Assembly: GCA_002689345.1 (NCBI GenBank)
Contig: NZFU01000073.1
Span: 1 to 35,432, forward strand
Source: Methanobacteriota archaeon
GTDB taxonomy: Archaea > Thermoplasmatota > Poseidoniia > Poseidoniales > Poseidoniaceae
Length of the DNA stretch: 35,432 bases
Direction of reading: 5' to 3'
Both the position numbers and the translations under genes were made by a program. This document shows positions 18,855 to 26,247 of the stretch, piece by piece. Numbering within the stretch: position 1 is the stretch's first letter; each line of letters starts with the position of its first letter. A model generated the notes under the pieces. It saw only the letters and a list, made by a program, of their open reading frames with translations. It did no database searches and was not told the origin of the DNA.

Positions 18855-19001
18855 GGAACCTGAAAACAATGCTTAATCTGGCAATAATTTAGCGCCGCAA
18901 ACCGGTGACATAGAATATGATTTTGGAGATGACTAACTACATCCAAACCAGCCACATTTATGGTGGAATTGATGGCAAGGGTTTATTTTGAATCAACCCA
19001 G

Positions 19002-19016
19002 CCCCTCTACGAGGGG
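19002..19016 (+). repeat. GC-rich inverted repeat directly abutting the ATG of the zinc-ribbon protein
   Basis: CCCCTC-TAC-GAGGGG immediately followed by ATG (19017). Confidence 0.6.
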
Positions 19017-20483
19017 ATGGGTATGCAGTGCGGCTCTTGTGTTGAAGAGATACCTGATGACAGCATATTCTGTCCCGAATGTGGCGCACGTCAAGAAATG
19101 AGCCGTGCCGGGGGACTGCCCGGTGTTGGAGCGGTCGGTTTGGGCGGCCAAGATGTTACTGGAGGTCGCAATTTCGGAGTAGTTTCTGGAGAAGCGGTCA
19201 TGAATCAAAACATGGGTCAAGGTATGCCTGGACAGGGAATGCCACCCGGTATGATGCCAGACATGATGAGTCAAATCGCACAAAATATTCCTGGGATGCC
19301 TATGCAAGGTATGCCTCCGGGGGGAATTCCTCCTGGTAATGTCACGCCATTGACTGGCCAAAACCCTCCACCAAATATCGGTGGGGCTAGAGGAGATATG
19401 CCACCTGCTTCCAAAGGACCTTCATTGGCTAGTGGAGCTGGCCCAAATCAACAATTAGGAGGTCAAAACCATCAACCAGGTGGTCTAGCAATCTCCAATA
19501 ATCCATCACTTTCACCTACCGATGCAATGGTAAATCGCATTGCAGAAGCAGAAAGAGCCGTCAAGAACGAACGTAGAAGCCAGTGGCTTCAGATGAACCA
19601 AGAATCTGCTGCAAATGTCTTGTCCTCAATCGGAGGAGAGTTACCTTCTCATCTCAAAGGCTCGAATGATGAGGCTAGTGCTGCACAATTTTTGGCTGAT
19701 GCTATTGGTACTGGCAAAGATGAATCTGGAAACGAAGCACTATTCAGGCGTATGTCCGAAGTGGCGGTGCGCAGAGTTGCTCGCAAGCGCGGTGTCGCGG
19801 TAGAAACTCCGCAAATCAAATCCGAAAATGGAGTATTGACTGTTAATGTAACTTACATCGATGATGGCAGGGTATTGGATACTCCAGAAGATCTATCATC
19901 AGCTTTCGAACATGCAATTTCTACCGAGGTTGCATTGAAGGGATTAGACACAATTGTCGAGATTGCATTATTCCGTTCTAAGGATGGTGCGGTTGCTAAG
20001 ATCGGTGCAGATTCTGTTGAGTCTGTCTCAACCGATAGCGATGAAGAAATGTTCGCATGTGAAGTGTGTGATGGCTTAGTCAAGGAATCTGATAACGAAT
20101 GTCCTCACTGTGGTGCAATGTTCGAAGAAGATGAAGATGATGCTCCAAGTGGAGGTCCTCCTAGTAGAGGCGGTCCTCCAAAGCGTGGTGGCCCACCAGG
20201 CCCATCTCGTGGTGGCCCACCTGGTCCATCTCGTGGACCTTCAGGTCCATCTCGCGGTGGCCCTCCAAAGCGAAGTGGTCCTCCTGGTGGCGGTGGCCCT
20301 CCAAAGCGAAGTGGCCCTCCTGGCGGCGGTGGCCCTCCAAAGCGAAGTGGTCCTCCTGGCGGTGGTGGTCCTCCAAAGAGCGGTGGTCCTCCAAAGCGTG
20401 GCCCTCCTAGTGGCGGCCCCGGTGGCGGTCCTCCAAAGCGTGGTGGCCCTCCTGGTGGACCAAAACGTGGTCCTCCTCGATGA
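19017..20483 (+). CDS. Double zinc-ribbon protein with Gly/Met/Pro-rich region and Gly/Pro/Lys/Arg repeat tail
   Basis: MGMQCGSCVEEIPDDSIFCPECGARQ (zinc ribbon 1); MGQGMPGQGMPPGMM low complexity; folded-looking middle; FACEVCDGLVKESDNECPHCGAMF (zinc ribbon 2); repeat tail (GPPKRSGPPGGG)n. Confidence 0.8.
   Translation: MGMQCGSCVEEIPDDSIFCPECGARQEMSRAGGLPGVGAVGLGGQDVTGGRNFGVVSGEAVMNQNMGQGMPGQGMPPGMMPDMMSQIAQNIPGMPMQGMPPGGIPPGNVTPLTGQNPPPNIGGARGDMPPASKGPSLASGAGPNQQLGGQNHQPGGLAISNNPSLSPTDAMVNRIAEAERAVKNERRSQWLQMNQESAANVLSSIGGELPSHLKGSNDEASAAQFLADAIGTGKDESGNEALFRRMSEVAVRRVARKRGVAVETPQIKSENGVLTVNVTYIDDGRVLDTPEDLSSAFEHAISTEVALKGLDTIVEIALFRSKDGAVAKIGADSVESVSTDSDEEMFACEVCDGLVKESDNECPHCGAMFEEDEDDAPSGGPPSRGGPPKRGGPPGPSRGGPPGPSRGPSGPSRGGPPKRSGPPGGGGPPKRSGPPGGGGPPKRSGPPGGGGPPKSGGPPKRGPPSGGPGGGPPKRGGPPGGPKRGPPR
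20259..20366 (+). repeat. Three near-identical 36-bp tandem repeats inside the coding sequence
   Basis: Unit GGCCCTCCAAAGCGAAGTGGTCCTCCTGGTGGCGGT = GPPKRSGPPGGG at 20259, 20295 and 20331, with third-position differences only. Confidence 0.85.
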
Positions 20484-21411: not shown

Positions 21412-22620
21412 TCACTCACCGCCTCCAATAAGGGATACAATTTTTTGTGCTCCCTCTGCTAAATCATCAGCAGGATGAATATTCAGATCTGAAGCAGCTA
21501 GAATCGCTTTTCCTTCATCGACATTTGTCCCGGCTAATCTGACGACCAGTGGCACATCTAATCCTAATGATTGGGTTGCTCCAATTACTCCTCTAGCAAT
21601 AATATCACAACGCATAATTCCTCCAAAGATATTGACCAAGATACCCTTGACATTAGGGTCCTCTAAGATAATTGAGAATGCTGTCTTAACCTGTTCTTCA
21701 TCAGCACCGCCTCCTACATCGAGGAAGTTAGCAGGCTCACCTCCGTACAACTTGATTACATCCATTGTAGCCATTGCAAGTCCAGCACCATTTACCAAAC
21801 ATCCAATGTTACCATCTAGTTTGACATACGAAAGACCGGTTTCTTTGGCTCGAATCTCTACATCTTCTTCCTCGGACAAATCTCGAAGGTCATTCCAATC
21901 CTTGTGGCGGAATTCAGCATTTTCATCGAAACTAATCTTGGAGTCTAAAGCGACGATTTCATCATCTTCAGTCTTGACTAGAGGATTTATCTCAACCATA
22001 GCACAATCTTGGGAGATGAACATGTCATACATCTTTCCTAGCATTTTGAAAAATGATTTTAGTGCATTACCTGAGAGTCCTAGTGCCATTCCTAAGTCTC
22101 TTTTCTGGAATCCCAAAAGTCCAGCGTTTGGGTCCACGTTAATCTTGTGGATTTTTTCTGGAGTGTTATGTGCAACATCCTCAATATCCATTCCACCTTC
22201 AGTTGAAGCCATAATTAGAACGGTCTTTTCTTCTCTATCAACTAATAGAGCCAAGTAATATTCGTGTGCGATTGCACAGCCGGATTCAACGTATAGATTG
22301 TTGACAATCTTACCTTCATCTCCAGTTTGAATTGTAACCAAAATGTTTCCTAAGATGTTAGATGCATAGGTTTCAACTTCTTCTCTAGAGAATGCAATTT
22401 TGACTCCACCTTGCATTACTTCTTCGCGAGTCTCAGGATTGTACATTGTACCCTTGCCGCGCCCTCCGGCGTGAATCTGACTTTTTACTGCAACAATCTT
22501 TGAACCTAAGGCGTCATATGCTTCCAGTGCATCGTTTACACTGGTGCAATGTACTCCTTCAAGAACAGGTACTCCTGCCGCCTTCAACAAGGCTTTTCCT
22601 TGGTACTCGTGAATATTCAT
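21412..22620 (-). CDS. sucC: Succinyl-CoA ligase beta subunit
   Basis: [76 protein letters not shown]. Confidence 0.96.
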
Positions 22621-22724
22621 GTTGCTTCCCAACCCCCCCGACCAAAAGACGCCCTTTCAATGATGCGATAATTCGTTGTCTAGTTCACGATGTGTTCAAT
22701 AGCCAAGTTGTAGTCGCACAATAC

Positions 22725-23696
22725 ATGCAGGTAGTCGTTCTTGCTGGAGGAATCGGTTCACGCCTTCGTCCATGGACAAATGATGTCCCAAAACCACTTC
22801 TGCCCATGCTGGATGCTACTCTATTGGAGAGAGTTGTCGAAGGCGTTCCTTCCGATTTAGTCGATGAAGTGATTGTAGCAGGTGGTTACAAAGTTGATAT
22901 GATCAAAGATTACTTCAAAACAGCCAATGTTGATTTTGATGTACGAATCGTTCCAGAAGATGAACCGCTTGGTACCGGTGGAGCATTAGGTAATTGTAGA
23001 GATATAGTCTCAGGTAGATTTGCTTGTTTTAATGGCGACATTGTATCGTCTCTGGATGTTGCTCCAATGCTTGAACAGCATTCAAAAATGAATGTGAAAG
23101 GCACTCTTGCTTTATGGGAAGTTGAAGATCCAACTAGATTTGGAATAGTTGGACTTGATGAAGGTAACAAGGTCACTCAATTCAAAGAAAAGCCAAAGCC
23201 AGAAGAAGTATTTTCTAATTTGATAAATGCAGGCTCTTACTTACTTGAAGACGAAGTATTCGACATCATGCCTAAGACAAAACATAGTCTAGAGAGAGAT
23301 GTATTTCCTAAGTTAGCTGAAGAAGGAAGTCTAGCGGGTTTCCCATTCGAGGGTTACTTCATCGATGCGGGTACTCCAAGCAGTTGGCATGACGGAGTGC
23401 TTCGATGTATAGAAGAAAAGCGTTTCAAAACAGGCTTGGTTTCTCAAGGCTCTTGGCATCAAGGAAGGAGAACAATCGCCCGTAATTCTATGGTTCAAGG
23501 CGGTTGTATTGTTGCAGGAGAAGTTAATGATTCCACTTTGCTTAAAGGAGCAAGAGTTGAATCGGGCGCAGTTGTTTCAAATTGTTTAATCGGTGAAGAT
23601 GCAGTTATTGGTCGGGATGCTCAATTATCAGGAGTAGTAGTTGGCCATCGAAGTATTGTTCCACCCGGTCATATCCAAAGCGAAGGCACGTTTTGA
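22725..23696 (+). CDS. Sugar-phosphate nucleotidyltransferase
   Basis: MQVVVLAGGIGSRLRPWTNDVPKPLLPML; FNGDIVSSLD; C-terminal left-handed beta-helix-like hexapeptide repeats. The 93 upstream codons in the track overlap sucC antisense and were excluded. Confidence 0.88.
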   Translation: MQVVVLAGGIGSRLRPWTNDVPKPLLPMLDATLLERVVEGVPSDLVDEVIVAGGYKVDMIKDYFKTANVDFDVRIVPEDEPLGTGGALGNCRDIVSGRFACFNGDIVSSLDVAPMLEQHSKMNVKGTLALWEVEDPTRFGIVGLDEGNKVTQFKEKPKPEEVFSNLINAGSYLLEDEVFDIMPKTKHSLERDVFPKLAEEGSLAGFPFEGYFIDAGTPSSWHDGVLRCIEEKRFKTGLVSQGSWHQGRRTIARNSMVQGGCIVAGEVNDSTLLKGARVESGAVVSNCLIGEDAVIGRDAQLSGVVVGHRSIVPPGHIQSEGTF

Positions 23697-23735: not shown

Positions 23736-24395
23736 ATGGATGCCCCACTTGTAGTAGTGAATTTCAAGACTTATTCAACAGCAATGGCCGATGCTGCAGA
23801 AGCATTAGGCCGTCAAATGGCTAGTGTTCAAACCAATGCTAGGATGGTTGCAGTAACCAGTGCATTCGACCTTTCAACTGTAAGTGCAATCAGTGGATTG
23901 GAAGTTTGGTCACAGCATTTAGACCCGGTAGGACAAGGCTCTCACACCGGATGGCTAGAGCCAGAAACAGCCATTGCAAGAGGAGCTAGTGGGACTATTA
24001 TCAATCATGCAGAGCACAAGGTCTCTATTGAGCATGTAAAACAACTCATGGCCATGCTGCCCGATGGTTTCCCAATCTGTGCTTGCGCAGCAGATGTTGC
24101 TGAAGCAAGAGCATTAGCTGAACTGGGCCCTACCTTCATTGCAGTAGAGCCACCTGAATTAATCGGTGGAGATATTTCAGTAACCACAGCAGACCCATCA
24201 ATCGTAAGTGATACTGTGGCAGCGGTTAAGGAAGTAAATCCGAATGTTCGTATTTTGTGTGGAGCAGGTGTGAAGAATGGCCAAGATGTTGCTACAGCGA
24301 TTTCATTGGGTGCAGAAGGTGTTCTTTTGGCAAGTGGTGTAACCAAGGCCAATGACCCTGAGTCTGTTCTTTCAGACCTAGTTTCTAAGATTTGA
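23736..24395 (+). CDS. tpiA: Triosephosphate isomerase (archaeal type)
   Basis: VVVNFKTYSTA, SQHLDPVGQGSHTGW, GTIINHAEHK, AVEPPELIGG, ILCGAGVKNGQDVATAISLGAEGVLLASGV. Confidence 0.94.
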   Translation: MDAPLVVVNFKTYSTAMADAAEALGRQMASVQTNARMVAVTSAFDLSTVSAISGLEVWSQHLDPVGQGSHTGWLEPETAIARGASGTIINHAEHKVSIEHVKQLMAMLPDGFPICACAADVAEARALAELGPTFIAVEPPELIGGDISVTTADPSIVSDTVAAVKEVNPNVRILCGAGVKNGQDVATAISLGAEGVLLASGVTKANDPESVLSDLVSKI

Positions 24396-25358
24396 AGCCT
24401 TGGCCATCTCAAGTGCTGATTGTTCTAATCTTGCCCGAACTAAATCTTCTCCTCCAGGACATGTGTCACGATGACCACATGTTCTGCAAGTTCTCTTATT
24501 ATTGGCGAGAGGGATTTGAGATAGATCACAACTCGGACCAAGCCTATTATGCAAATCAATCATTGCGTCCATATCCTTTCTAATCATCTGAATTGCATCG
24601 CTTAGATTTCTTTGACTACAACGTTCACTCCATCTATTCCATCTACCACGATTCCAAAATAAATTTTCTACAATGTATCTTTCAGCATATTCTGGCAATC
24701 CCTTCTGAACAGTTGCCCACATTACCATGGCCATATTCTCTAGGCGTTTATCATCACCAGGGTTCGATACACCCTGTACTGTAAATCTAAGAAGATGACA
24801 TGTAGATCCACTAATCCATACCAAGTCCGGTGAAATATGTAGATTGAACTTGTCTAAACCTGTAACCTCTAATCTCGAAAAGGTATACCATTCAGTAATT
24901 CGACCTTGTAAAATATCTACGATTGGTTTTGATTTCATAACAGCATGAAATCTATAACACGCAATCTCTACCAATCGGTCGATTTCTTTTCTTTTTATTT
25001 TGTTACGTAGAGTACTAGTTCCACCGATTCTAGTTTCGATTACATCGATTACTGACTTTTGTCTTTCAATAGCTCCAATTATTCGATGCCTAATCTTTGC
25101 CGCCAAGTCCCTTTCAATCCAAACTTTGTCATTAGAGAATGCAGTTAATCTCTCAATTATGACTCCACGAAGAGATCTTTGCATTAATCTCCAAGTAGAT
25201 GACCAATCTGATATATTCCTAAGATGTTGATTAAATCCACCTTGTCTTCTACCAAATCCATATTTTAAAATCCATGCCCTTGGACATTTATTCATTAGAT
25301 TTCTACGACTGATTGACCATCTTTTTGGACGGTTAGCCCACTTATTGATTGTGCTCAT
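24378..25358 (-). CDS. Cas4/RecB-like PD-(D/E)XK-family protein with 4-Cys Fe-S motif, active site apparently degenerate
   Basis: N-terminal KCPRAWILKYGFGR plus C-terminal CRTCGHRDTCPGGED (Cys spacing like Cas4/AddB). The core DLVWISGSTCHLLRFTVQG retains Asp but lacks D/E-x-K. Confidence 0.6.
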   Translation of the reverse strand: MSTINKWANRPKRWSISRRNLMNKCPRAWILKYGFGRRQGGFNQHLRNISDWSSTWRLMQRSLRGVIIERLTAFSNDKVWIERDLAAKIRHRIIGAIERQKSVIDVIETRIGGTSTLRNKIKRKEIDRLVEIACYRFHAVMKSKPIVDILQGRITEWYTFSRLEVTGLDKFNLHISPDLVWISGSTCHLLRFTVQGVSNPGDDKRLENMAMVMWATVQKGLPEYAERYIVENLFWNRGRWNRWSERCSQRNLSDAIQMIRKDMDAMIDLHNRLGPSCDLSQIPLANNKRTCRTCGHRDTCPGGEDLVRARLEQSALEMAKASNLRN

Positions 25359-25440: not shown

Positions 25441-26247
25441 ATGTCATTTCGCGAGAAGTGCTACAACCTCGCAGAAAGCAATAGATTTCAATATGCAATT
25501 TTAGTATTGATTGTCATCAATGCAGTCACAATCGGGTTGGAAACTTTTGATTGGCCAGATCCAATAACCAGTGCACTATTCACTCTCGATTCAATAATAA
25601 TGTGGGTTTTCGTTGTCGAGTTGATAATCAGATTGACAGGACATGGGTTCAAATTTTTCCGGGACCCATGGAACAATTTCGATTTTGCAATAATTTTAGT
25701 TTCCATCGCACCTTCAACCGGTCCATTCAGTGTTCTGCGTGTCTTCAGAGTATTCCGGGCCTTAAGATTGGTATCAACTATGCCTGAGATGCAAAAAATG
25801 GTTGAAGCAATGTTGCGTTCATTGCGAGGTATTGCAGCGATAAGTTGGCTGCTTTGTATTGTGTTATACGTATTTTCAGTTATGGCTACAATGCTATTTG
25901 GAAGCGGAGGTGATTATGGAGAGGAATATTTCGGTAGCCTAGGAAAATCACTCTATTCATTATTCCAAATAATGACATTGGAATCATGGTCAAATGGAAT
26001 CGCTCGAAATATTATCGCTGAGCAAGGATGGTGGGCTGCAATTTTCTTTGTTTCATTCATCATCAGTACCTCATTCACTTTCCTAAATATGTTCATTGCA
26101 GTGTTTACCAATACAATGGCTGCAATCGATATTGAAGGCGGCGATGATGAAGGATTTTCTGGAATGTTAAATGAAATCAAGTCAGACATTGATGAACTAA
26201 AAGAAATGATTCAATCTTCGATTCAAAATAAAGATTCAGACCCTTAA
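25441..26247 (+). CDS. Single-domain voltage-gated cation channel, NaChBac (BacNav)-like
   Basis: Six TM segments; S4-like LRVFRVFRALRLV (Arg every third residue); pore FQIMTLESWSNGIA; S6 FISTSFTFLNMFIAVFTNTM. Confidence 0.9.
   Translation: MSFREKCYNLAESNRFQYAILVLIVINAVTIGLETFDWPDPITSALFTLDSIIMWVFVVELIIRLTGHGFKFFRDPWNNFDFAIILVSIAPSTGPFSVLRVFRVFRALRLVSTMPEMQKMVEAMLRSLRGIAAISWLLCIVLYVFSVMATMLFGSGGDYGEEYFGSLGKSLYSLFQIMTLESWSNGIARNIIAEQGWWAAIFFVSFIISTSFTFLNMFIAVFTNTMAAIDIEGGDDEGFSGMLNEIKSDIDELKEMIQSSIQNKDSDP

Follow-up and report, generated by a model that had tools for sequence, protein, structure and literature searches.

The window, by which we mean the whole 35 kb (35,432 nucleotide) stretch of DNA analysed, contains an intact open reading frame (ORF) at 25441..26247 (+), which runs from an ATG at 25441 to a TAA at 26247 and encodes 268 amino acids without an internal stop. 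The host belongs to Marine Group II (MGII) / Poseidoniales, as judged by genome-level relatives and named homologs, and its genome comprises 1.68 Mb in 74 contigs (77% complete, 0.5% contaminated). The predicted product is a BacNav-type single-domain voltage-gated cation channel. Against Pfam PF00520 (Ion_trans) the ORF scored 161.5 bits (E 2.7e-47), and Pfam together with an AlphaFold model gave a single Ion_trans domain with S1-S6 and a pore loop, in agreement with an earlier note on this DNA that described one six-transmembrane (six-TM) domain. By sequence, the best solved single-domain relatives are NavMs and NavAb; NavMs matches the channel full-length in one stretch at 184 bits, compared with ~105 bits for the best eukaryotic Cav repeat, and the pore and tail alone best match pore constructs of bacterial channels. 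The model, built from an alignment of 45 window and locus proteins, has a mean pLDDT of 88.7 and contains S1-S6, two pore helices, and a single helix that continues from S6 into the tail. When searched with Foldseek, NavMs and NavAb ranked first (E ~1e-13, TM ~0.7-0.85), with 3-8 Å deviations across the whole chain and ~36-38% identity over the fold. This agreement in motifs and fold is far beyond chance, and the protein almost certainly belongs to the BacNav superfamily. A four-domain eukaryotic origin was considered and rejected: Cav3 owes its top PDB rank to summed repeats, and per domain NavMs scores better. PADLOC, which would have indicated a defence role, gave no match for the channel.

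The voltage-sensor domain, S1-S4, spans residues 14-113 (25480..25779, +). Its S4 segment, LRVFRVFRALRLV at residues 99-111 (25735..25773, +), has the arginine at every third residue that had been noticed previously (Arg 100, 103, 106, and 109), and all four are conserved in archaea and bacteria. In the 45-sequence alignment (A2) the invariant positions are these arginines, aligned with NavAb R99/R102/R105/R108, F57, E60, and D81, aligned with NavAb F56/E59/D80, and T179-L180-E181, W183, and N216. Archaeal and bacterial rows alike conserve the voltage-sensor residues, including the gating-charge-transfer triad. The selectivity filter, TLESWSNG at residues 179-186 (25975..25998, +), is as close to the BacNav signature as the earlier note held, and it matches TLESWxxG, the published signature of prokaryotic Na+ channels (PMC4225499). 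Among the 35 MGII genomes in which the filter was read, 33 have TLESWSNG and two have TLESWSHG. Position 7 of the filter, which is Asn185 here and Met181 in NavAb, is Asn or His in all MGII sequences read and Met in most sampled Proteobacteria; His also occurs in one alphaproteobacterial row (L100). We take Glu181 to be the high-field-strength site. Also kept are Q176 and R189; their NavAb counterparts, Q172 and R185, are part of a hydrogen-bond network with Glu177 in that protein (PMC12919392).

The cytoplasmic gate of S6 is Phe222-Thr223-Asn224 (26104..26112, +; NavAb I217-V218-D219), and this FTN is present in every archaeal sequence covering the site. Phe occupies the column in 0 of 48 aligned bacterial rows; the sampled bacteria have Ile, Val, Leu, or Met, followed by Val, Leu, or Ile. 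In the sequences compared, Asn/His at filter position 7 and the Phe-Thr-Asn gate are signatures of the MGII clade. Beyond the gate lie an acidic neck (residues 229-241; 26125..26163, +), acidic in all MGII members shown, and a C-terminal coiled coil (residues 242-258; 26164..26214, +) in which L243-I246-I250-L253-I257 form a coiled-coil-like heptad spaced 3-4-3-4. The heptad spacing is conserved in both MGII subfamilies, A and B, and the modelled helix reaches residue 264, lending weight to the earlier proposal that the acidic C-terminal tail is a coil.

Comparison with known channels places these features. With NavMs and NavAb (Proteobacteria, Campylobacterota) the MGII channels share the single six-TM domain, four S4 arginines, TLESWSxG, the S6 asparagine, and the neck and coiled coil, however they differ at two sites, with Asn/His instead of Met (filter position 7) and F-T-N instead of I-V-D (S6 gate), and they form a separate clade. 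The Met at position 7 (TLESWSM) that marks the canonical NavAb-like subgroup is absent in MGII. NaChBac from Bacillus likewise has a TLESWxxG filter, a voltage sensor, and an acidic neck with a coil, however its filter reads TLESWAS, with Ser at position 7, and it groups with the AnclNavs. The AnclNavs (CavMr, NavPp, and relatives) are single-domain superfamily relatives with T[LF]EDWTD or TLEGWVD filters, whereas MGII keeps TLESWS; the AnclNav mark, Asp/Gly at filter position 4 with Asp at 7, is absent from the MGII ESWSN. In sampled EDWTD AnclNav rows Arg replaces the pore-helix Gln, which MGII retains. Each repeat of the four-repeat Cav3/Nav channels resembles the MGII chain, Cav3 repeat II being the best eukaryotic match, however these proteins link four repeats rather than having one, and their per-repeat score is below that of NavMs. 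A K+ channel identity was rejected, as there is no GYG or T(V/I)GYG-type filter and the trees place the channel among single-domain BacNavs; MGII K+ channels are a distinct family with a TSTGYGD filter.

The trees show the MGII channels as a separate archaeal clade (100/100), with subfamily A at 100/94 and subfamily B at 100/100. NaChBac groups with the AnclNavs (100/97), which were recognised in the tree by their T[LF]EDWTD filters, apart from the MGII clade; the label "NaChBac-type" given in the earlier note therefore holds in the sense of a single-domain BacNav and not in the sense of closeness to NaChBac itself. In the unrooted tree, which has no eukaryotic outgroup, NavAb-like bacterial rows stand apart from MGII at 89/78. 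AU tests rejected neither the joining of MGII with gammaproteobacterial lineages (p 0.48) nor with NavAb/Sulfurimonas (p 0.50), and MGII plus AnclNav as one clade, 12 log units worse, was also not rejected (p 0.22). AnclNavs have been stated to occur in archaea (Shimomura et al. 2020; PMC7041947), and archaeal BacNav relatives are therefore not new. In the open-access literature searched, we found no description of a TLESWxxG channel in MGII, and what we report is a new archaeal clade of an already well-known channel class. To our knowledge, archaeal voltage-gated sodium channels are essentially unstudied, and BacNav-type proteins have been studied almost only in bacteria. For channel biophysicists, a conserved archaeal clade supplies naturally occurring variation at two sites that govern ion selectivity and gating.

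A survey of related archaeal genomes, as had been suggested, found a strong homolog in 38/340 genomes of the class, at 64-75% identity to the window channel in subfamily A and 46-49% in subfamily B. All but one of the carriers (37/38) are in the family of the window (f1), the exception being G288 from the sister family, and one homolog lies in a one-contig genome (G036; 2.06 Mb, 96% completeness). Within the genus of the window, 3/27 genomes carry the channel (MAGs 55-91% complete). No channel was found outside Poseidoniales in a 390-genome sample of Thermoplasmatota. Across the 84,980 species genomes scanned, the best 80 loci included 4 from MGII, the remainder being bacterial and 37-52% identical; more distant archaeal members may lie beyond these 80. 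A search of IMG/VR viral contigs yielded no relative, and one distant match came from a faecal phage record that lacks annotation. The chromosomal surroundings of the gene differ between carriers, with several unrelated contexts and no gene neighbour or operon partner conserved across them. The channel of one genome (G014) shares 89% identity with copies from genus g4, whereas the FlaH encoded on that contig shares ~65% with g4 and 97% with a congener, a mismatch that points to inter-genus transfer of the channel. At least one such transfer is clear from these comparisons, and the distribution is patchy, the channel being most likely carried as an accessory gene. It is conceivable, although we would not favour it at present, that MGII represents a fourth prokaryotic voltage-gated Na+/Ca2+ channel lineage beside the NavAb-like, Bacillus, and AnclNav lineages, with Asn/His at the filter mouth giving it its own permeation and with its own Phe activation gate. 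If so, gene transfer would have distributed the lineage among archaea that are the most abundant in the surface ocean.

The locus is best explained as encoding, in an MGII archaeon, a functional BacNav-superfamily cation channel that is gated by voltage and has one six-TM domain; we assign this reading a probability of about 0.85. Gating by voltage is itself highly probable. A preference for Na+ is likely, and the TLESWxxG signature and glutamate argue for it; we stop short of a firmer statement because exclusion of Ca2+ may be weaker with Asn/His at position 7 of the filter. Most likely, the product forms a homotetramer that opens on depolarisation and prefers Na+, and the gene is an accessory one. 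We hypothesize that four subunits would assemble via the tail coil, that depolarisation would move the S4 arginines outward past F57/E60/D81, and that the S6 gate would then open and let Na+ enter the cell through the Glu181 ring. The change from Ile to Phe at the S6 gate could alter gating. Opened in this way, the channel may provide a voltage-triggered return path for Na+, serving Na+/H+ antiport and the homeostasis of pH or voltage. A Na+-type A-ATP synthase has been proposed for MGII (PMC6336850), which makes a gated Na+ return path plausible. No gene neighbour conserved across carriers points to a cell-level role, and we advance homeostasis tentatively.

The alternative that survives best is a Ca2+-permeable or poorly selective voltage-gated channel that serves Ca2+ signalling or adhesion instead of Na+ entry, which we consider unlikely. 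It draws on the Asn/His that replaces Met at position 7 of the filter: in NavAb the M181A mutant no longer excludes divalents, with PCa/PNa raised to about 0.36-0.47 (PMC12919392), and by this precedent the selectivity of the native Asn/His filter for Na+ may be lower. In one genome (G025) the channel gene is also 22 bp downstream of a same-strand gene for an EF-hand protein (L010, G025:C12, 10361-11884), however none was seen beside the other copies. NaChBac has Ser at position 7, yet is Na+-selective. Filter positions 3-6 read ESWS, without the D/G of CavMr (TLEGWVD) or AnclNav (TLEDWTD), and D186E alone was enough to turn NsvBa Na+-selective (PMC4225499). On the Na+-preferring reading, abundant archaea of the ocean may respond to depolarisation of their membrane by admitting Na+, and this would tie the channel to their balance of H+ and Na+ energetics.

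The earlier note had also raised motility, for which NaVBP is the precedent in Bacillus (cited in PMC4225499), and a comparable role here, in motility or chemotaxis through a link to the archaellum, appears improbable. FlaH is encoded in 33/37 f1 carriers, however f1 genomes without the channel encode it equally often (p = 1.0 in a Fisher test within f1, the FlaH-negative count for non-carriers being a minimum). In G014 a subfamily-B channel gene and the archaellum operon flaJ-flaI-flaH-flaG converge, with 63 bp between the end of the channel gene and flaJ (L013, G014:C74, 4137-10396), however this adjacency occurs in G014 only, and channel and FlaH share a contig in 2/32 carriers with both located, one pair being ~290 kb apart. 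The archaellum is ATP-driven, which also counts against such a role. In a published survey, Rinke et al. could identify no chemotaxis genes in MGII (PMC6461757). An archaellum partnership thus looked strong in G014 and failed the class-wide test, the archaellum being family-wide regardless of the channel.

Excitability had also been suggested previously. We observed a separate MGII six-TM K+ channel that has TSTGYGD as its filter and a zinc-ribbon-like tail at the C-terminus (L006, L007, L008, L009). This potential partner was found in only 6/38 sodium-channel carriers, where a pairing is possible; the host genome, as far as assembled, has none.

The genomic setting of the channel is archaeal. 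The window also encodes ribosomal protein L44e and IF-2 alpha (eIF2-alpha), and the right-hand neighbours DCC1-DUF2071-TlpA-like-DUF92-like-PrsW-ALDH-MsrA are common to the window and to congener G025, the channel carrier mentioned above. In two other congeners, G015 and G021, the site lies between TIM and PD-(D/E)XK at one end and DCC1 at the other, and is occupied by different genes without the channel; G021 additionally retains the nucleotidyltransferase. Because these flanks are kept around other genes, absence of the channel at that locus is real. Archaeal genes on the contig and synteny with a congener indicate that the locus is neither chimeric nor bacterial, and the channel is virtually certain to be an archaeal gene; neither a bacterial or chimeric contig nor a placement with K+ channels, the two outcomes the earlier note named as speaking against it, was found. 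A recent bacterial contaminant or mis-assembled MAG segment might be suspected from the closest listed non-archaeal homologs, which are Proteobacteria, many of them marine, and from a gene GC of 38.3% against 43.1% for the window, however it is extremely improbable given that the best bacterial identities are 42-52% compared with 64-75% in other MGII genomes, adjacent genes share the GC of the channel gene, its GC3 is inside the window range, the synteny extends to G025, and a homolog lies in the one-contig genome; for the channel family as a whole, contamination is already refuted.

Other ORFs in the window deserve brief mention. A 326-aa protein at 24378-25358 (-) has weak similarity to PD-(D/E)XK / Cas4-like nucleases and is found in 17/27 genomes of the genus, and a 507-aa zinc-ribbon-like protein at 18960-20483 (+) ends in a long C-terminal GGPPKRGGPPG low-complexity repeat. 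The nucleotidyltransferase ORF at 22446-23696 (+), as listed, starts at a TTG inside the opposite-strand sucC, and its true start is probably further in. Elsewhere, the end of one contig carries a truncated AnclNav-like voltage-sensor fragment (L233, G254:C13, 1-336), next to a 2255-aa ORF that is repetitive. The fragment is 47% identical to a Pseudoalteromonas AnclNav and may represent a second archaeal channel type or contamination.
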